Source: Candidatus Omnitrophota bacterium
GTDB lineage: Bacteria > Omnitrophota > Gorgyraeia > Velamenicoccales > Velamenicoccaceae
Assembly (NCBI GenBank): GCA_028717105.1
Contig: JAQUOM010000003.1
Span: 1 to 33,696 of the forward strand
Direction: 5' to 3'
DNA length: 33,696 nt
Shown here: positions 5,321 through 29,623 of the stretch, piece after piece
How the letters are laid out: each line of letters starts with the position of its first letter
How positions within the stretch are numbered: position 1 is the first letter of the stretch
Made by a program: the position numbers and the translations under genes
Notes under the pieces: model-generated
The model's database searches: none
Seen by the model: the letters and a program-made list of their open reading frames with translations, nothing else
Told to the model about the DNA's origin: nothing

Positions 5321-6250
5321 TTAGTCGCCGTGATGCGTTTCGCTGCTCAAGGGCTCGACGTGCACCACGATATCGCTGACTCCGCAAAATTCTTTTTTGA
5401 TAAGGTCTTCGATTTTAACGGTCAGATCGTGGGCATGGACCAGTTTCATCTGGTCATTCACCAAAACATGAAGATCGATATAGATATCGTCATGACGGCC
5501 GCGGGTCCGGATCTTATGGCATTTCTTGACCTCCGGGATCGCCATGATCAGGCGCTCGATGGCCTGGCGGTCGATCGCCGCCGTATCGCAAAGGACTGCC
5601 GAAGATCGCTTCAAGATCTCGATGCCGGAAAAAGCGATAAACACGGCGATGACCATGGCGACAACGGCGTCCAAAACGGGAAATCCGAGCTTGACGCCGA
5701 CGAAAGCGACGCCGACGGAAAACGAGGTCAAAAGGTCCGCCCGCGTATGCATGGCATCTGCAACCAGGATGTCGCTGCCCAGGACGCGGCCGCGGCGACC
5801 CTCATAAAACATGACGCCCGCGTTCACCACCATGGTCACGCCCAGAACGACAAAACCCCAGACAGTAACTTCCGGGGCCCTCCTGGCCCACAGCCTCTCC
5901 CATCCATCGTGGATCAAGTGCAGACAGATCAAAAACAATAAAAACGCGATCACCAGGGAAGCCAGCGTCTCGTATTTCTTATGGCCGTAAGGATGGTCTT
6001 CATCCTTGGGCTGGCCGGCGATCTTCATGCCCAGCAATCCCACGATATTCGATGCCCCGTCCGCAAACGAATGATAACCGTCGGCCACCATACTGGTGCT
6101 GTTAATCAAATATCCAAAGATGAGTTTCAGGACCGCCACCAGCCAGTTCAAGCCCAGGACCCAAAAGAGGATCCTGCGGACAGCGGCCACATAACCCTTG
6201 GGGCCCCTCGGATCGTGATGCCCGTGATCATGATGTCGATGGATCAGCAT
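5321..6250 (-). CDS. Cation diffusion facilitator (CDF) family transporter
   Basis: His-rich N-terminus HRHHDHGHHDPRG; NSTSMVADGYHSFADGASNIVGLLG; second-site VADAMHTRADLLTS; CDF cytoplasmic C-terminal domain. Confidence 0.9.
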   Translation of the reverse strand: MLIHRHHDHGHHDPRGPKGYVAAVRRILFWVLGLNWLVAVLKLIFGYLINSTSMVADGYHSFADGASNIVGLLGMKIAGQPKDEDHPYGHKKYETLASLVIAFLLFLICLHLIHDGWERLWARRAPEVTVWGFVVLGVTMVVNAGVMFYEGRRGRVLGSDILVADAMHTRADLLTSFSVGVAFVGVKLGFPVLDAVVAMVIAVFIAFSGIEILKRSSAVLCDTAAIDRQAIERLIMAIPEVKKCHKIRTRGRHDDIYIDLHVLVNDQMKLVHAHDLTVKIEDLIKKEFCGVSDIVVHVEPLSSETHHGD

Positions 6251-6253
6251 GGA

Positions 6254-7000
6254 TTACTCCAGCAACAAAAGAAGCGCCATCACCATAACGCCGCAAATAA
6301 TGGACAACAGCTGAAAGATGGAACGGGAAAAACGGATCTCGCGATGAAGTTCCGGAATCAAATCAGACCCCGCCAGATAAATGAAGCCGCCGGCCGTCAA
6401 CGGAAGGGCATAATCTGCGAAATCATTGATATGCGGCCCGATAAGCAGGGCTGTCACCGCGCCCAGAACGGCCACAAGGGCGCACAGGAAATTCATACCG
6501 AGAGCCTTGCGCCTGCTCAAGCCCCCATTCACGAGGATCCCGTAATCCCCTATCTCCTGGGGAATCTCGTGCAGGACGACTGCCAAGGTCGACGTGATAC
6601 CGATCGCGAAACTGACAGAATAGCTGGCCCCGATGATGATACCGTCGATGAAATTATGGAATGCGTCGCCGATAAGATTGAGCCAGACCACGGGCTTGTC
6701 GTGCATATCACAAACCCCCGCATGGCAATGCCGCCAATAGATGAACTTTTCAAGGATGAAAAACAAAAGAATACCTGCGATGACACCGAAAGAAACGCGC
6801 AGGGGTGAAACAGCCTCCTCAAAAGCTTCGGGGAGAATATGGATAAAGACGTCGCCGAAAAGCCCCCCCACGGCAAAACTGACAAGAAAAAGCAGGGCTC
6901 TTTTCAGTCTGCGTTCGTCAATGGCCAGCGCCAGGATACCAACCAAAGAAATAATACTGACAAGAAAAACACTTAATAATGCGTATATCCAAGTTTTCAT
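6254..7000 (-). CDS. ZIP family metal transporter
   Basis: IGDAFHNFIDGIIIGASY and VVLHEIPQEIGDYGILV, the paired TM4/TM5 ZIP metal-site signatures; 8-TM hydropathy. Confidence 0.92.
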   Translation of the reverse strand: MKTWIYALLSVFLVSIISLVGILALAIDERRLKRALLFLVSFAVGGLFGDVFIHILPEAFEEAVSPLRVSFGVIAGILLFFILEKFIYWRHCHAGVCDMHDKPVVWLNLIGDAFHNFIDGIIIGASYSVSFAIGITSTLAVVLHEIPQEIGDYGILVNGGLSRRKALGMNFLCALVAVLGAVTALLIGPHINDFADYALPLTAGGFIYLAGSDLIPELHREIRFSRSIFQLLSIICGVMVMALLLLLE

Positions 7001-7170: not shown

Positions 7171-8013
7171 TTACCGGCCTCGTCCGGAATTTTCGCTGCA
7201 CAAACATTGGCTGTCACCGGCCGCGATCTTATCCTTAATGAGTCGAGCCACTTTCTTTCCTGAATATAGCATCCCGGAGAACGTCGGCCCCATGCGCGGG
7301 ATGGCAAAAACCGTTGCCACGCTCATGCCGCAGGCATAGAGCCCCGGGTAAACCTCTCCCGTTTTCTCCACGAGGGCATCTTCGGAGCCAACGACATCCA
7401 TGGCCCCGCATTCTCCGAACGACAGAATCCCCCTCTTCTGCAATGCCTGGCAGACGCGCGCGTCATGTCCCGTGGCATCGATAACGGCCTTTGCCTCCAG
7501 GGCCACAGGGTCAACGCAGGTGATGGCCCGCGGCAGGGCCGACACGGCCGCCCAATTGACGACCACGCCTTCCACCCTTCCCTGGCGACAAACCACATCA
7601 TCGCACTTCGTCATGTGAAGAAACTTCACCCCTGCGTCGCACGCCGCGGCGATCAGCTTGGAACAGGCCTCGGGGCCGCGGGCCGCATACAAACCCTCCT
7701 CGATCTTTTTGTATCTGATGCCCATCTCATCAAGCATCTCCTGCCCCGGACTGCGGAACGTCAGCGTGTTCATGAAATAACCGCCGATCCAGAATCCTCC
7801 GCCCAAGTAATTATTACTCTCGACCACCAGGGTCTTCAAGCCGCTCCGCGCCAGGTCCCGCGCTGCCACAAGACCGCTGGGGCCGGCCCCGACGATCACC
7901 ACATCGTTTTCAATATGCCCGTCGAATTCCTGGAAGAATTCAGACGAAATGGCGCGCGTGATACGCGCCTCGTTGATAGGATAAAATGTCATCATGTCCT
8001 CCAAAAGTTTCAA
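7171..8013 (-). CDS. thi4: Thi4-family thiazole synthase (active-site Cys type)
   Basis: VVIVGAGPSGLVAARDLARSGLKTLVVE Rossmann motif; GVVVNWAAV...ITCVDPVALEAKAVIDATGHDA; GLYACGMSVATVFAIPRMGPTFSGML. Preceded by a TPP riboswitch. Confidence 0.9.
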   Translation of the reverse strand: MKLLEDMMTFYPINEARITRAISSEFFQEFDGHIENDVVIVGAGPSGLVAARDLARSGLKTLVVESNNYLGGGFWIGGYFMNTLTFRSPGQEMLDEMGIRYKKIEEGLYAARGPEACSKLIAAACDAGVKFLHMTKCDDVVCRQGRVEGVVVNWAAVSALPRAITCVDPVALEAKAVIDATGHDARVCQALQKRGILSFGECGAMDVVGSEDALVEKTGEVYPGLYACGMSVATVFAIPRMGPTFSGMLYSGKKVARLIKDKIAAGDSQCLCSENSGRGR

Positions 8014-8120: not shown

Positions 8121-8144
8121 TCAAAACACACCATATCTCATAGA

Positions 8145-8338
8145 CACCTCCCTTCGCTGGCATTACCCAGTCCTGCTTCGCTAAAACGCTTTCGTTTTTA
8201 GCTTCACAGGATTCCTGCGTAGCCGTGCGTGCAAACTGCGCGGCGAAGCAGAAATCAGGTTCATGAGGTCATCCGCTTTTGTCGCCAAGGCCTGCTTGAC
8301 GACACGCGGAACTCTCAGGCCGCTCTACGACCTCCCTC
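8145..8338 (-). ncRNA. TPP riboswitch (THI element), with an insertion in the J4/5-P5 region
   Basis: Minus strand GAGGTC...CCTGAGAG...GACCTCATGAACCTGAT...[83 nt]...CTGGGTAATGCCAGCGAAGGGA matches the conserved CUGAGA, ACCUGAU and CUGG-GUAAUG-CCAGCG-AGGGA blocks of THI elements. P1 was not clearly identified. Confidence 0.85.
8171..8253 (-). repeat. Foldback/palindromic element inside the TPP aptamer
   Basis: Ends are inverted: TCCTGCTTCGC (8171-8181) versus reverse complement of 8243-8253, TTCTGCTTCGC. Internal hairpins GCTAAAACG/CGTTTTTAGC and CAGGA-T-TCCTG. Confidence 0.7.
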
Positions 8339-8402
8339 GATTCAATTGTCGGACCACTGTATCAAAAAATCATATCTCTGTCAAAGCCGCAAACAAGATC
8401 GG

Positions 8403-8594
8403 CTAAACCAATTGTTCGAACAGAATATCCGCCAATTGGGCATGGCGGACCTCATCCCTGAGAACATGACGAAGTTCTTCGATAAGGCGTTCGTCTTCAA
8501 GCAGGGGCATCAACTGCGAAAGAAAAACAATCATTGTTTTTTCTTTGTTGGAGATTGTCTGAAAATATTCCCGGTAATCGGCTTTAGTAAACAT
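8403..8594 (-). CDS. Small two-helix ferritin-like protein B
   Basis: MFTKADYREYFQTISNKEKTMIVFLSQLMPLLEDERLIEELRHVLRDEVRHAQLADILFEQLV; ExxH (EVRH) motif. Start taken at the internal ATG 8592-8594. Confidence 0.6.
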   Translation of the reverse strand: MFTKADYREYFQTISNKEKTMIVFLSQLMPLLEDERLIEELRHVLRDEVRHAQLADILFEQLV

Positions 8595-8820
8595 TTTTCT
8601 CGTCCTTCTGCACGCGGGCGATGATCTGCTCAAAAATTTTTCGATGCCCCCGGGATTCCTCCCAAAGGGTCCTTAAAATCTCGGCGACCTTCTCCTTCGA
8701 ACCCGGCGCGAATCCCGACAAAAACAGCGTATTCCCCATATGCTTGGTATAAACAACAATGGCCGACTCTTCGATCTTAATGCCTTCTTCCAGTTTTGCG
8801 ATCAAGGCGTCTTTTGTCAC
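8584..8820 (-). CDS. Small two-helix ferritin-like protein A (GTG start)
   Basis: (V/M)TKDALIAKLEEGIKIEESAIVVYTKHMGNTLFLSGFAPGSKEKVAEILRTLWEESRGHRKIFEQIIARVQKDEKNVY; carboxylate/His pattern typical of ferritin-like helices. Overlaps both neighbours. Confidence 0.6.
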   Translation of the reverse strand: MTKDALIAKLEEGIKIEESAIVVYTKHMGNTLFLSGFAPGSKEKVAEILRTLWEESRGHRKIFEQIIARVQKDEKNVY

Positions 8821-10004
8821 GTCGTTCCCCCTTCCTGTGCGACATTGCGCACCACGCCGCATGCGATCCCGTCGGCAATCCAGGCCAGGCTGTTAACGAA
8901 ATAATCAGCCTCCCGCCCGTATAGGCCGCTCCTCCAAGAGAGATCGCGTCTCGTCATTTTCAAAAAAATATCCTTCTCATCACCGCCCGCGGGCAGCACG
9001 GCACAATAATACGCCGCATAAAACAAGGGGCTTTCATACTCCTTCAAAGGCTCGCCGGCATAGGTGTATTCGCAAAAAATCTTCCCGCGCTCCTTATACT
9101 CGCTTGCAGCAAACCGGCCGATCGAGCCGCGCAAGATTTCTTCGGCCGCCGCAGAACCAAACCACAGATCATCCAAAACAACCCGCAAGGGAATCCTGAC
9201 CGCCTCCCATCCGAAATCCGCGCTCTTCTGCGCCAAAACCTCAAAAGCGTCGTTGTCATCAACGCAACACCAGTCCGGAAACAAACCCGCGCCTGCCTGG
9301 CCGCCGAGGTTCTTGGCCAGGGCATCCAACACGAAATACGTCGTTTCCGCAAGCTCAAGCCACCGCGGATCATCTGTCAAGGCGTAAAAAATCCGAAAAT
9401 GCGCCGGAGAATAGTAAGAAGGGTTGACCGGGTATCGGCCTCTTCCGGCCGGGACCTCTCCAAGGATCCATGGCGCCAGATACAAACGGCCCGAAGCTGT
9501 CCGGTATGTCTCCAGCCGCAGGATATCGTTCAATACGACGAGGGCCTTTTGCTCATAACCCTCAAGGCCTTCAGGGGCTCCGGACGGCCATGCCCTGGCG
9601 GCAAAAATCAAAGCCAGGGCATAATCGATATCCGCATCGCTGGCAGGCATCCAGTCCACGACCTCCCCGTCTTTCCAGCGCCAGGCCAGAAGATGGTCGC
9701 CTCTCTTTCCAGAACGCGACAAGTGAGACTCTGTCCACCGATAGATCCTGTCGAAGGCTGGCTTATCTCCCATCCAGACCGACCGCAGCAAAGCATAGGC
9801 CTGCCCCTCGGAAACAGAATCCCTTTCCTTGAGGCGCATGACGCACCCGTCAGGAGCGATAAACCTCTCCTGATAACCTTTCCAGGTCTTCTCGACAATG
9901 CGCGCCGACGTGCGGCCGTCTAAAAAAAACCAAACCGCGGCCGCACCCAGCAACGGGAGAAAAAACAACACCCAAAAAATGTTCCGGTCAAACCTTCTCT
10001 TCAT
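8817..10004 (-). CDS. Glycoside hydrolase family 8-like (BcsZ-type endoglucanase-like) periplasmic enzyme
   Basis: N-terminal signal/TM; FIAPDGCVMRLKERDSVSEGQAYALLRSVWMGD (GH8 SEGQ motif); DWMPASDADIDYALALIFAARAW. Located directly after the BcsA-like synthase. Confidence 0.88.
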   Translation of the reverse strand: MKRRFDRNIFWVLFFLPLLGAAAVWFFLDGRTSARIVEKTWKGYQERFIAPDGCVMRLKERDSVSEGQAYALLRSVWMGDKPAFDRIYRWTESHLSRSGKRGDHLLAWRWKDGEVVDWMPASDADIDYALALIFAARAWPSGAPEGLEGYEQKALVVLNDILRLETYRTASGRLYLAPWILGEVPAGRGRYPVNPSYYSPAHFRIFYALTDDPRWLELAETTYFVLDALAKNLGGQAGAGLFPDWCCVDDNDAFEVLAQKSADFGWEAVRIPLRVVLDDLWFGSAAAEEILRGSIGRFAASEYKERGKIFCEYTYAGEPLKEYESPLFYAAYYCAVLPAGGDEKDIFLKMTRRDLSWRSGLYGREADYFVNSLAWIADGIACGVVRNVAQEGGTT

Positions 10005-11514
10005 TAAAATAAAAAATACTGGAGAATAATAAAAAGTGATACGCGATCCAGGCCGCATTCAGCAAAATGGCGGCAGAACGGGCATAAACCAGTTTATTCA
10101 AAGCCCAGGTCAACGCCGCAAGATTCACACCCCAGAAAAAAAGCTGGGGCCAGAGATAAACATAAGGGATACGCCGCCCCCCGTTTTTTGCCGTCACTTC
10201 AAACCTTCCTTTAACCCCCAGCAAACCGAACAATGACGCCCGCAGGTAAACCGGCAGCGTGACAAAAACTAAAAGCTGCCCCAGTATTGCCTGCCGCATA
10301 TCGTAGGCACGCTCATACATACTATAATAAAAAATCGCCAGCGAAAGGATCAGATAGGGAACAAAACTCAGAGAGTAAACGACGGAATTCATGAAAAAAG
10401 ACGGGATGCCGAAAAAGATATACAGGACCGGGCAGAAAATGAGAAAAATATACGCCCACCCGATCAAATAGTAACTCCCTGTAACAAAATACTCGAACCA
10501 CTGCGCGAGCGACAACCGGAAAGGGTTCCTGAAAAATTCCACAATGATACGGCGCAAGACCGCCACATTTCCCATGGCCCAGCGGTGCTGCTGCTTGAGA
10601 TACGCCACGAGATCCTCCGGCCCCTGGCCGAAGACATAAACGTGGTTGCTGTAGAGAGACCTCCAGCCTCTCAGATGAAGCTTGACGGACGTGGCAAAAT
10701 CCTCCGTCACGGTCGCTTCATCGAGCCCGCCGACCTCCAGAAGCGCCTGGCGCCTTAAAACGACGTTGGTCCCGCAACAAACCATGGCCTCATTCGACCC
10801 CTTGCCTTCGCAAATGTATTCATAGAAAACCGCCTGCTGGACATTGGCGGCCAAAGCGACCCTGCTCGAAGCGGTATTGGAATAAAACTGCGGCGTCTGG
10901 ATAAAACCCAGCCGGTCATCCGCCTCGAGAAACGGGACCAGCTTATCCAAAAAGGAAGCTATGGGGTTCTGATCGGCATCGAAAATGGCGATATATTTCT
11001 CGTCCAGTGTCGCGACACAATCATTGATAATGCCGGCCTTGGCGCCCCGACGAACATCACGGCTGAAGACCTTGGCTTCGTATTTCCGGGCCAGCCGTGC
11101 GGCCTCTTCCTTGAATTTTGGAATGGAAGAATCGTCGAGAAGATAAATATGCTTGTTGGGATATTGCAGGTTATAAAGGCAAACGAGCGTATCTTCCAGG
11201 ACCCCGGTCGGTTCATGCCTCGCCGGAACAAGGATAGCGACGGAAGGAATATGCGGCACGGCCTGGACCGCAGGCAGAACGCAGCGCTTCTGCCGGCAAC
11301 GGTAAACGGTTATAAAATAGCCCAGGGCCTGGACCAGCACAAAAGCTTCGCACAAGAGGAAAACGACGGCCAGCGTCTTTTCCAGGATATCGTAGCGGGC
11401 AGAAACGACGAAAACGGACCGAACGAGAAAATAAACGACGAGAAAAACAAACAGCAGCACGAGGAATGCCGTGTAAGATTGCCGCTCTTGATGGAAGCGT
11501 TCGCGAAAACCCAT
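9988..11514 (-). CDS. Membrane GT2 polysaccharide synthase (BcsA/cellulose synthase-like), no PilZ domain apparent
   Basis: VAILVPARHEPTGVLEDTL, LLDDSS, IAIFDADQNP, VTEDFATSVKLHLRGW, LKQQHRWAMGN (D, DxD, TED, QxxRW) with N- and C-terminal TM helices. Confidence 0.93.
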   Translation of the reverse strand: MGFRERFHQERQSYTAFLVLLFVFLVVYFLVRSVFVVSARYDILEKTLAVVFLLCEAFVLVQALGYFITVYRCRQKRCVLPAVQAVPHIPSVAILVPARHEPTGVLEDTLVCLYNLQYPNKHIYLLDDSSIPKFKEEAARLARKYEAKVFSRDVRRGAKAGIINDCVATLDEKYIAIFDADQNPIASFLDKLVPFLEADDRLGFIQTPQFYSNTASSRVALAANVQQAVFYEYICEGKGSNEAMVCCGTNVVLRRQALLEVGGLDEATVTEDFATSVKLHLRGWRSLYSNHVYVFGQGPEDLVAYLKQQHRWAMGNVAVLRRIIVEFFRNPFRLSLAQWFEYFVTGSYYLIGWAYIFLIFCPVLYIFFGIPSFFMNSVVYSLSFVPYLILSLAIFYYSMYERAYDMRQAILGQLLVFVTLPVYLRASLFGLLGVKGRFEVTAKNGGRRIPYVYLWPQLFFWGVNLAALTWALNKLVYARSAAILLNAAWIAYHFLLFSSIFYFNEEKV

Positions 11515-11515
11515 A

Positions 11516-13456
11516 TCAGAAATAATACGTCCCTTTCACCGTCACGCGATTCTCCGTCCATATCCCCTTGCGCTCGTAAAACGTCTTGGACGCCTCCAGG
11601 TGCGTCGAAAACTTCTTGCTCCAATCCCTGTGAACATCCAGATAAAACGCATGGCCGGTCTGATCATGGACGTCCAGGATAACGTTATAACGGAACGTGT
11701 AATACGTGTCCAGGGCGCCCCAGAAAAGGCCTTCCTTGTTCAAAAAATGCCTCCACTCCACTCCCAGGCGCGTCGTATGAAAACTGCCCGGCGCGAAATA
11801 GGTACGGCTCGGGTCGCGAAAACCGTACGCCTCATGCCTGAAGAAAACCTTCAGGGCCCGCGGCTCAAACAAGATGATCCCGACACCGTCAATACCGTAG
11901 CGCCAACGTTCATTCTCGTCGGTAAAATGGGAAAAAGTATAATCAGCCCCGGCGGCAAGCCGACGGATCGGCGCCATCTGCCAGCGCAACATATAATCAT
12001 CCCTCTGGAGGCTGGAACGCACCGTATTCTCATTGTCCGTCACGTCCCGGCGCTCATGAGAAACAAGAAAAAGATTAAAATCGTCCGGTTTAACAATGAT
12101 CTTTTCGTGGAACGTATGGGTCGCCTGAAGACCTTTGGTGTAGTGGTTGAAATCATAGCCGGCCTCGGCCTGAAGATGAGGAGGACGATTCCAGGTGATA
12201 CGCATGGAAGGGCCGCTGCGCAAAACGCGCAACCCGGAAAAGTCGTACCAGAAATTGCTCTCTCCTAAGCCCAGCTTCCACTGTGACGACAAAGGCATAG
12301 ACAGGTGCGAATCAAGAGAGATATAGCGCTCGTTTGTAAAACGCTCGCCGCTGTCGGCTTCATAAAAAGACAATTCCTCGTCCCAAACAACATGGGACCC
12401 CTTAAGCGCGGCCTTATCGAGGGCCTGACGCGCGCGGAAATGCGTGGGGACCAGGTCGAGCAGCCGGGCATATTCCTGACGGGCCTGCGGCCACATCTCT
12501 TGAAGAGAATAGGTCTGCCCCAGGTCGAAAAGCGCCTCCTGGTTATCAGGCTCCTGCGTCAGCCACGCCTGATAATATTTCACACCTCTTTGATATGCCC
12601 CGCGATAATACTCTTCTTTAGCGTCTTTCTCGCAAACGAGCGGCCCCTGAGGGCCGAAGCGGGCTATCGCCTCATCGTAGACCCGAAAAGAATCCGCATA
12701 ACGGAGCATCCACCCCAGGACACGCGCCTCTTCGCGCCATAAAAGCACCTGCTTCGGGTCATCCACCTTTAATTCCCGGTAAGCCTCGAGAGATTCATCG
12801 TAGCGCCCGGCCCAGCTCAAGACCCTGGCCAGGCGGAGTTTTACTTCGAAACGATCGGGATCCTGTTCCAAAAGACGGCGGTAAATCTCTGCGGATGGTC
12901 CGTACGCGCCCGCCCAGGAATACGCATCTCCCAGCCCCAGGAGAAGACGCGTATTGCCGGGGTCCATCGACAAAAGCTGCCGGCGGATCGCGATCAGGCC
13001 CTCCAGATCTCCCGTCCATAAAAAAAGATGCGCAATGTCCTGAAGGACGCGGGCATCCCGGGGGTTGAGCCGATAAAGCTCATCGGCGCAGGCCTTGGCC
13101 TCCTGAAACCGCTGGTGCGTTTCTAAAATACCGATGCGCAGACGCAAAACATCGGGATTACCGGCCGTATCCTTCCCCAGGCCGTCGAGCAGAAAAATAG
13201 CCTCATCAGGCTTGTCGCCGTAGCCATAGCTTTTTACCAACTCAAGAAGGACCGGGACATTCTCCGGATAGCGCCGATATAACTCTTCCAAATAGCCCTC
13301 CGCCTCTGAATATCTTTTCAGATTATTCAAACTCAGCGCAAGCCCGAAGGATGCGCGGTCCTCGTCACGCAAAAACTCCTGAGCGCCGGACATGCCTGCC
13401 GTCAGCAAGGTGAACGCAGAAAGAAACAACACGCCGGCCTTAATTTTCCTCTTCAT
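11516..13456 (-). CDS. Outer-membrane TPR plus beta-barrel exopolysaccharide export protein (BcsC/PgaA-like)
   Basis: Signal peptide MKRKIKAGVLFLSAFTLLTAGMSGAQ; TPR repeats; C-terminal strand-rich region ending in aromatic (VTVKGTYYF). The ORF track extends upstream to 13849, but that part is out-of-frame shadow of the upstream TPR gene. Confidence 0.85.
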   Translation of the reverse strand: MKRKIKAGVLFLSAFTLLTAGMSGAQEFLRDEDRASFGLALSLNNLKRYSEAEGYLEELYRRYPENVPVLLELVKSYGYGDKPDEAIFLLDGLGKDTAGNPDVLRLRIGILETHQRFQEAKACADELYRLNPRDARVLQDIAHLFLWTGDLEGLIAIRRQLLSMDPGNTRLLLGLGDAYSWAGAYGPSAEIYRRLLEQDPDRFEVKLRLARVLSWAGRYDESLEAYRELKVDDPKQVLLWREEARVLGWMLRYADSFRVYDEAIARFGPQGPLVCEKDAKEEYYRGAYQRGVKYYQAWLTQEPDNQEALFDLGQTYSLQEMWPQARQEYARLLDLVPTHFRARQALDKAALKGSHVVWDEELSFYEADSGERFTNERYISLDSHLSMPLSSQWKLGLGESNFWYDFSGLRVLRSGPSMRITWNRPPHLQAEAGYDFNHYTKGLQATHTFHEKIIVKPDDFNLFLVSHERRDVTDNENTVRSSLQRDDYMLRWQMAPIRRLAAGADYTFSHFTDENERWRYGIDGVGIILFEPRALKVFFRHEAYGFRDPSRTYFAPGSFHTTRLGVEWRHFLNKEGLFWGALDTYYTFRYNVILDVHDQTGHAFYLDVHRDWSKKFSTHLEASKTFYERKGIWTENRVTVKGTYYF

Positions 13457-14141
13457 CCAGGGACTCCCTGTAGAGCTTGATCGCTTCCTCATCACGCCCG
13501 GCCCAGCGAAGATTATCGGCCGCCTTAAGCAACAAAGACCTGTCATCCGGCCGCGCCGCAACCAGCGTACGATAGCATACCGCCGCCTGGTCATGGCGGC
13601 CGGTCCAATTGTAAATGTCGGCCAAAAGTTCCACCGCCTCAAGGTCTTGAGGATGGTCTTTCGTGAACGCCACCAGAAGAGGCAGAGCTTCTTCATATTT
13701 TTTTTGCCACAAAAGATTCTCAAGATACTTTTTGGCGACCCTTGCGTTATCTTTTGTCCTGCCCAGAATATTATGATAAAGCTCCGCGGCCTTCCCGTAT
13801 TCCGACAAACGATAATACAAATCCGCCAGTTCCTCGGCCATCCCGACATCCGTCGGCCGGGTCTCCCATATGCGCTCGAGGATATCCCTTGCCTGCGCGT
13901 CCATCCCCAGTTCCCGATAGGCCAAAAGCAAAGTGCGGGCGACGTGCGGATCGGAAGGATTCATGCGGTAGGCGGACGCCAGATACGGAAGGGCGTCCTT
14001 CATACGGCCGGCATCAAAATAATTCTTGCCCGCCGCGCTTAATTTATAAAAAGTCTGGGTCTTGTGAAAAAGGAAAGTTGTCGCCAGAACAATGACCAGG
14101 ACGCTTAAGGAAAGTACGAATTTCCGCAACGCAAGAGACAT
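13440..14141 (-). CDS. TPR protein with N-terminal TM anchor
   Basis: LSLSVLVIVLATTFLFH TM; repeated TPR-like units (AGRMKDALPYLASAYRMNPSDPHVARTLL; YNWTGRHDQAAVCYRTLVAARPDD). Confidence 0.85.
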   Translation of the reverse strand: MSLALRKFVLSLSVLVIVLATTFLFHKTQTFYKLSAAGKNYFDAGRMKDALPYLASAYRMNPSDPHVARTLLLAYRELGMDAQARDILERIWETRPTDVGMAEELADLYYRLSEYGKAAELYHNILGRTKDNARVAKKYLENLLWQKKYEEALPLLVAFTKDHPQDLEAVELLADIYNWTGRHDQAAVCYRTLVAARPDDRSLLLKAADNLRWAGRDEEAIKLYRESLDEEEN

Positions 14142-14145
14142 AAGT

Positions 14146-15027
14146 CTAAGGAGTTTTCAGCGCTTTCGCATTGATCTCGTTATCGGCGCGCTGGGTCAAC
14201 GGGTTTTCCGGATCCAATTTTTTGGCATCGGCCAGATACTGCCGGGCCGTCTCTGTTTCTCCGCGGCGAAAATAGATCTGCGCCAGCCGCGCATAGGCGT
14301 CTGCAAAATAGGAATCGACTTCGATCGCCTCTTTGAGAAGCGAGAGCCCTTTCTCGGCATCTCCGCCGGCGATGCCGGGTGCCAGCGCATAAAAACTCCC
14401 CAATCCGAACAGGACGCCGGCGGAACGAGGCTGAAGTTCCTGGGCTTTTTTGAGATACCCCAATATCTGCGTGCCCTGAAAAAGCTTGGAGAAGATCCCT
14501 CCTTCGTCGGCGATCATGCCTTTGGCCCCTCCGATGATAAGGTAAGCGCGCGCATAATTCGTCAGATCGACCCGGGCGCGACCCTGTTTTAAAACTTTCA
14601 ATGCCAGGCGGATCGACCTCTCGTATTCCTTCTTATCGAAAATCATATACCCCAGAGTGATGGAAGCAGGGGAGAATTCCGGGTCTTCTTTGATGATCTC
14701 ATCTAAGACCGCCTCGGCTTTCTCCGGCTGATGCCGGCGCCGCAAAATCTCGGCCTGTCCCCATCGCGCTTCGATGCTCGTCGGATCAACGGCCAGCATA
14801 CGCGCAAATACGTCACCGGCCTCCTGGATCTTGTAAAGATTCAAATAAACCAGGCCCAGCGTGTAAAGGGTTTCCTGGGATTGCGGATTTTTCTCCTGGT
14901 CTGCCAGGGCCTCGGCCAAAGAGATCTTGTCGGCCTTCTCGTGAAGATCTTTCCAATCCATCGCACCGGCAAGCCCGCATGCCGCCCAAAAAAAAGCCGC
15001 AGACACAATCGATAAAATATATCTCAT
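14146..15027 (-). CDS. Periplasmic TPR protein
   Basis: Signal peptide MRYILSIVSAAFFWAACGLAGA; TPR units throughout; SD GGAAAGG upstream. Confidence 0.85.
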   Translation of the reverse strand: MRYILSIVSAAFFWAACGLAGAMDWKDLHEKADKISLAEALADQEKNPQSQETLYTLGLVYLNLYKIQEAGDVFARMLAVDPTSIEARWGQAEILRRRHQPEKAEAVLDEIIKEDPEFSPASITLGYMIFDKKEYERSIRLALKVLKQGRARVDLTNYARAYLIIGGAKGMIADEGGIFSKLFQGTQILGYLKKAQELQPRSAGVLFGLGSFYALAPGIAGGDAEKGLSLLKEAIEVDSYFADAYARLAQIYFRRGETETARQYLADAKKLDPENPLTQRADNEINAKALKTP

Positions 15028-15063
15028 CTTTAAGCCTTTCCGGAAACGTGAATGCACGGCTCT

Positions 15064-28849: not shown

Positions 28850-29623
28850 ATGATCGACGAAATCAAGATATCGAAAGCCATCATTGACACCTATAGCAAA
28901 AAGCTGATCAGCCACCTGGATGTGGACGTGGCCATTGCCGGGGCCGGGCCTTCCGGGATGACCTGCGCTTACTACCTGGCCAAAAAAGGCAAGAAGGTCG
29001 CCATCTTCGAACGCAAACTTTCCGTCGGCGGCGGCATGTGGGGCGGCGGCATCATGTTTAACGAGATTGTCGTCCAGGCACAGGCCAAAAAGATCCTGGA
29101 TGAATTCGGCATCCGCAGCCGCGTCTACGAAAACGGCTATTACCTGGCGGATTCCATAGAGGCGACCGCAACGCTCTGCGCGCAGGCCCTCAAGGCCGGT
29201 GCCGTCATCTTTAATTGCATGAGCGCCGAAGACGTTATGATCAGAAAAAACCGCGTCTGCGGGCTCGTCCTGAACTGGACGGCTGTCGAGATGGCGCGGC
29301 TCCACGTCGACCCTATCACCATGCGCGCCTCCTATGTCGTTGACGGCACGGGCCACGACGCCCAGATCGTGCATCTCGTCGAAAGAAAATCCGGGATACG
29401 CCTGAAAACAAAAACCGGAAAGGCCGTCGGGGAAGGCTCCATGTGGGCCGACATCGCCGAGACGACGACGGTCAAAAATACCCGGGAAGTGGCCCCCGGC
29501 CTCTACGTCTGCGGCATGTGCGCCAACGCCACTTTCGGCGGGCCGCGCATGGGGCCCATTTTCGGAGGAATGCTTCTGTCGGGCAGAAAAGTTGCCGGGG
29601 AACTGCTGAAGAAACTGAAATAA
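28850..29623 (+). CDS. thi4: Thi4-family thiazole synthase (active-site His, archaeal/multi-turnover type)
   Basis: [110 protein letters not shown]. Confidence 0.95.

Follow-up and report, generated by a model that had tools for sequence, protein, structure and literature searches.

The window, a 33,696-nucleotide stretch of a 1.6-Mb Candidatus Omnitrophota MAG that is 93% complete, carries two very small minus-strand genes, here called A and B, between a run of polysaccharide genes and a Thi4 gene (Table 1). The start of A shares 4 bp with the end of the GH8 gene, and the 11-nt overlap of A with B is predicted to couple their translation. The initial annotation, made from the sequence alone, described two tiny ORFs that overlap by 11 bp and each contain about half of a ferritin-like domain. 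The coordinates bear out the overlap, and both products read as two-helix half-ferritin modules, with ferritin-like matches among their relatives. In the window itself, A matches Pfam Rubrerythrin just under threshold (E = 8.5e-4, 20 bits, cut-off 22.8), and a Pfam scan of B alone gave no relevant family match.

Table 1. Features of the A/B locus and its neighborhood (window coordinates)
Feature	Position	Strand	Remarks
TPR protein, first gene of run	14146..15057	-	promoter-like site 15091-15064
TPR protein of the EPS operon	13440..14141	-	conserved cluster among relatives
TPR protein, weak PgaA-like outer-membrane barrel signal	11516..13849	-	
Processive GT2 (cellulose/PNAG-synthase-like), no PilZ domain	9988..11514	-	
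GH8 glycoside hydrolase (BcsZ-like), directly upstream of A	8817..10058	-	Pfam Glyco_hydro_8, E 2e-37
Gene A, half-ferritin subunit	complement(8584..8820)	-	78 aa, GTG start
Gene A residue codons	Glu17 8770-8772; Ser56 8653-8655; His59 8644-8646	-	
A/B gene overlap, 11 nt, ATGTTTACTAA on minus strand	8584..8594	-	same overlap in 41/47 pairs
Gene B, half-ferritin subunit	complement(8403..8594)	-	63 aa, ATG start
Gene B residue codons	Glu18 8541-8543; Glu48 8451-8453; His51 8442-8444	-	
Sigma-70-like promoter TTGACA-17-TACAGT, between B and Thi4	8356..8384	-	10/12 matches, consensus scan only
Probable TPP riboswitch aptamer, unusually long insert	8132..8347	-	RF00059, 25.0 bits, E 0.0079, below gathering 54.3; core motifs present
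Terminator-like hairpin after TPP aptamer	8122-8094	-	
Thi4 gene	7171-8013	-	

Single-sequence searches of 334 sampled phylum genomes recovered A relatives in 43 and B relatives in 20, with profiles finding more, and a genome-contig scan with a narrow A alignment gave 8 loci. The related loci come from Candidatus Omnitrophota; within the window's own family, the seven further genomes sampled have neither the A/B pair nor the GH8 gene. The initial annotation had proposed looking for conserved adjacency, and a B-type ORF indeed lies directly behind A at all 47 extracted A loci. The overlap is exactly 11 nt in 41 of these 47 pairs, and A/B pairs duplicate as pairs. A frame error splitting a single longer gene, raised as a possible undoing of the original proposal, is ruled out by the identical two-ORF layout of the 47 pairs, the fixed overlap, and dN/dS values of 0.08 to 0.30 for both genes among close relatives, which indicate purifying selection. 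A and B are confirmed as real genes rather than chance ORFs. In a mirror-tree comparison, the A and B distance matrices correlate with an r of 0.82 (best of 2000 permutations, 0.24); shared ancestry contributes to this correlation, which fits co-inheritance of A and B and is no proof of contact. Matches of the A profile to ORFs of 520 to 550 aa cover part of A only and look like false positives. Two other loci (L020:1245-1719 and L022:1245-1725) hold more distant A-like genes, each followed with an overlapping start by a different half-ferritin (LRFEKxRxNEExAAWKYQE), and represent a related but distinct pair type.

Aligned with hhalign, the profiles of A and B prove homologous (probability 95.5%, E = 1.4e-8). 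When both were placed in one tree of 90 leaves, the 45 B's formed one clade apart from the 45 A's, with support of 0.99. Pfam Rubrerythrin is matched by 11 of 28 A's (best, 2e-5) and 12 of 28 B's (best, 2e-6), and several B's also match the Pfam families EncFtn-like, Ferritin_2, and DUF2383. Against the PDB, the better-scoring matches of the B profile are mostly di-iron or di-Mn bundles (due ferri designs, bacterioferritin, and EncFtn/EncB/EncC), with Mn catalase and aldehyde decarbonylase as weaker matches. Profile matches of A and B to single-chain relatives are weak; taken as a whole, both proteins show significant sequence and profile similarity to the ferritin-like superfamily. An AlphaFold2 model of one B relative (L087) contains the helix hairpin, and a single-sequence model of an A-B fusion, at a pLDDT of 48, was too low for use.

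The putative metal ligands are conserved. Across 45 pairs, Glu17 and His59 of A are each present in 45/45, and in B, Glu18 is kept in 38 (Asp in 1) and Glu48 and His51 in 39 each. These residues are essentially invariant in the 39 nondegenerate pairs despite overall identities of 20 to 45%, and the E-30-E-3-H spacing of B is found in 38/38 intact relatives. The Tyr of the fuller E-7-Y-23-E-3-H spacing occurs in 30/45 B's and is Leu in the window B. Position 56 of A is Ser in 34 pairs, Gln in 4, Thr in 3, Cys in 2, and Ala and Lys in 1 each, and never Glu. Helix 2 of the window A reads ESRGH, and this Ser at the ExxH position means that the two halves are not equivalent. The earlier picture of two ferritin halves stands for the ligands and ExxH motif of B and is corrected at the second helix of A. 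If A and B pair, they would together offer three Glu and two His, forming an asymmetric di-metal site one bridging Glu short of a standard di-iron protein.

The initial annotation had left the choice between A+B co-assembly and homo-oligomers. Our alignments favor A:B over A:A, because none of the 45 A sequences has the bridging Glu and A, short of one ligand, could not form a homo-oligomeric ferroxidase site; the B:B option survives in a form that we consider improbable. Here, B alone would build an EncFtn-like homodimer around a di-iron site, with A as a separate homologous partner, either chaperone or inhibitor. Two-helix homodimers are known, and each B chain brings three ligands in the exact EncFtn spacing, but this arrangement gives no reason for the invariant Glu17 and His59 of A (45/45) or for the obligate A/B pairing with its fixed overlap. 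Further, encapsulin (PF04454) was not found in the 93% complete window genome, whereas control genomes were positive. With no shell gene in the genome, we also rejected A and B as encapsulin cargo.

The genes preceding A and B (TPR, TPR/barrel, GT2, and GH8) are a synthase-dependent exopolysaccharide (EPS) operon, with the pair at its end. The GH8 gene falls below the cut-off of NCBIfam BcsZ, and a PilZ domain was looked for on the window GT2 and not found. This position, which the initial annotation had called unexplained, is the commonest context of the relatives. The order TPR-GT2-GH26/GH8-A-B recurs at L079-L087 and others as well as in the window, and a second order, A-B-GT2-TPR/PgaA-like barrel, is found at L142-L145 and L147. 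At four further loci (L101, L102, L104, and L106) the pair sits in an antioxidant cluster comprising Rrf2, ferredoxin, rubrerythrin, desulfoferrodoxin, glutaredoxin, an ArsP permease, thioredoxin reductase, A, B, and 8-oxoguanine DNA glycosylase (Ogg). The first two contexts point to polysaccharide, and the third points to reactive oxygen.

On the other side of the pair, the adjacency to Thi4 remarked on earlier is real, but it does not amount to an association, since Thi4 is a separate transcription unit. We rejected a functional link because a separate promoter-like site and a leader resembling a TPP riboswitch precede Thi4; the leader belongs to Thi4 and not to A/B, and the gene forms a thiamine unit of its own. 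The window has a second Thi4 paralogue at 28850-29623 (+). It also encodes, at 5321-7000 (-), a zinc transporter of the ZIP family (Pfam Zip), and the translation of a neighboring gene reads like that of a cation-diffusion-facilitator transporter.

In six pairs (L081, L082, L094, L099, L100, and L103), the three B ligands are all missing, a joint loss that supports the idea that these residues work as one site. The degenerate A'B' pairs are second pairs in five of the six loci, and most are followed by a receiver-domain gene. They occur in exactly the six operons whose GT2 is ~600 to 630 aa long and in 0/14 operons whose GT2 is ~503 to 515 aa long, showing that a pair is worth keeping beside the synthase without the site and that a role in EPS can exist without metal. 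Such a role would suit the proposal that A:B serves the GT2 synthase complex chiefly as a structural adaptor, with metal binding secondary or vestigial. The constant presence of the pair next to GT2 operons, in two different gene orders, agrees with this proposal as well, but it sits poorly with ligands that hold essentially invariant in the other 39 pairs and with an antioxidant context that has no GT2, and we judge it quite unlikely. The longer GT2 proteins of these six operons, among them those at L099:3875-5713, L081:6223-8055, L103:6424-8325, and L100:9402-11237, carry a C-terminal extension of ~100 aa. The extension gives a weak in-register profile match to PilZ (probability 22%, E = 9e-4) with the PilZ motifs absent, and it is possibly a divergent half-PilZ.

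In 10 relatives, B is extended by a PilZ domain (Pfam E-values down to 4e-10), and the RxxxR and [DN]xSxxG c-di-GMP motifs are present in 10/10. The AlphaFold2 model of the 163-aa fusion from L087 (pLDDT 90.8) has helices at residues 4-31 and 35-63, a linker helix at 67-77, and then a beta barrel. Foldseek ranks cellulose synthase with c-di-GMP first among its matches and further PilZ proteins next (E ~2e-3, probability 1.00). Both the motifs and the modeled barrel are those of PilZ receptors, and these relatives are predicted to bind c-di-GMP. Seven of the B-PilZ genes close a TPR-GT2-GH26 operon. Similarly, at L085:1613-3124 and L140:4112-5632, the B-type half forms the N terminus of a protein with REC-like and CofD/YvcK domains, in L085 with an A-type gene directly upstream; REC genes adjoin some A/B pairs. 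The initial annotation had held that homologs fused to unrelated domains with no metal ligands conserved would speak against it, and the PilZ and REC-CofD fusions keep theirs. The window genome encodes 11 GGDEF domains, so c-di-GMP signaling is present there. The PilZ extension is absent from the window B, however, so the c-di-GMP link does not extend to the pair in this genome.

Because of these fusions, the adjoining REC genes, and the GGDEF complement, A:B looks more like a sensory or regulatory module than an iron store, and the Rrf2-rubrerythrin-desulfoferrodoxin-glutaredoxin-TrxR-Ogg cluster suggests that what it senses is redox. The same cluster could instead house a small metalloenzyme, a rubrerythrin- or Mn-catalase-like peroxidase or ferroxidase that guards anaerobes from oxidants and, in EPS operons, protects the synthase or a cell-surface process without any signaling. 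Ferritin-like homology, the set of three Glu and two His, the company of an 8-oxoG glycosylase, and TrxR as a possible electron donor would all suit an enzyme of this kind. The lack of rubredoxin and of cage-forming parts would not, nor would the retention of ligand-less paralogue pairs beside the synthase, and the PilZ and REC-CofD fusions point to signaling; we regard the enzyme as unlikely.

The explanation that we prefer, at a probability of about 0.5, is that A and B form an obligate heterodimeric half-ferritin whose asymmetric metal site senses O2, reactive oxygen species, or redox state and modulates polysaccharide synthesis, together with c-di-GMP in some lineages. A and B, expressed from translationally coupled genes, would each contribute one of two nonidentical halves to a single ferritin-like four-helix bundle and would assemble as an A:B heterodimer or possibly a higher oligomer. 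A-Glu17, A-His59, B-Glu18, B-Glu48, and B-His51 would together bind two metal ions, iron or another metal, with only one Glu as a bridge, A having Ser in place of Glu56. Being short of this canonical Glu, the site may equally be mononuclear or weak. Reaction with O2, peroxide, or cellular reductants would change its state, which would be passed to a partner, in EPS operons the GT2 synthase machinery. In the 10 PilZ-bearing relatives, the signal would travel through the c-di-GMP-binding domain fused behind the second helix of B; the window B, which has no PilZ, would directly affect either the synthase complex or an unlinked partner. The initial interpretation as a whole is thus partly supported.

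More broadly, and tentatively, the pair may be an obligate heterodimer, conserved across Omnitrophota, whose asymmetric di-metal site senses O2 or redox state and which is connected to one of several outputs: a PilZ receptor, a receiver/YvcK-like protein, a GT2 synthase, or an antioxidant operon. Where it accompanies EPS genes, it would then be a split-protein coincidence detector for redox and c-di-GMP. If redox sensing is true, A:B would be a new class of sensor in the control of c-di-GMP and exopolysaccharide, and this in a large phylum that is mostly uncultured and about whose surface biology little is known. Ferritin-like proteins are widely held to have arisen by duplication of a two-helix hairpin, and a living family in which the halves are still separate, unequal, and gene-coupled offers a direct test of that idea. 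Half-ferritins, PilZ domains, and GT2 operons are each already known; among the open-licence papers searched, no title or abstract opening suggests an obligate two-gene half-ferritin heterodimer tied to PilZ or EPS.

Among known systems, EncFtn (PF22277; Rhodospirillum rubrum Rru_A0973) shares with A and B the two-helix subunit and with B the Glu/Glu/His spacing E32-E62-H65. Its Glu32, Glu62, and His65 make up the ferroxidase center at the homodimer interface, and its Tyr39 corresponds to the Tyr kept in 30/45 B's (PMC5012862). EncFtn is a symmetric homodimer and decamer carried as encapsulin cargo, whereas A and B come from two genes and A is without the ExxH Glu. Rubrerythrin and other ferritin-like proteins (PF02915) resemble the pair in the sequence of both halves, the E(+7)Y and ExxH motifs, and their antioxidant-cluster company. 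Rubrerythrin is, however, a single chain of four helices and six ligands, while A and B are separate two-helix proteins with five ligands between them and no rubredoxin domain. Mn catalase uses three Glu and two His with a single bridging Glu, the ligand set that A and B would offer jointly, and is a weak profile match of B; it differs in being a single long chain and a hexameric enzyme. Hemerythrin-type systems tie a di-iron four-helix bundle to c-di-GMP signaling by redox state (PMC9388753), as we propose for A and B. They belong to a different fold family with a His-rich site, whereas A and B would form a split bundle whose output is PilZ, a c-di-GMP receptor, rather than c-di-GMP synthesis or breakdown. 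Finally, the PilZ domains of the cellulose synthase BcsA and of Alg44, like the predicted one of B-PilZ (absent from the window B), are c-di-GMP receptors linked to a processive GT2. Unlike them, B-PilZ has its PilZ domain attached to a ferritin-like half and thus acting in trans with respect to the GT2, if it acts on it.
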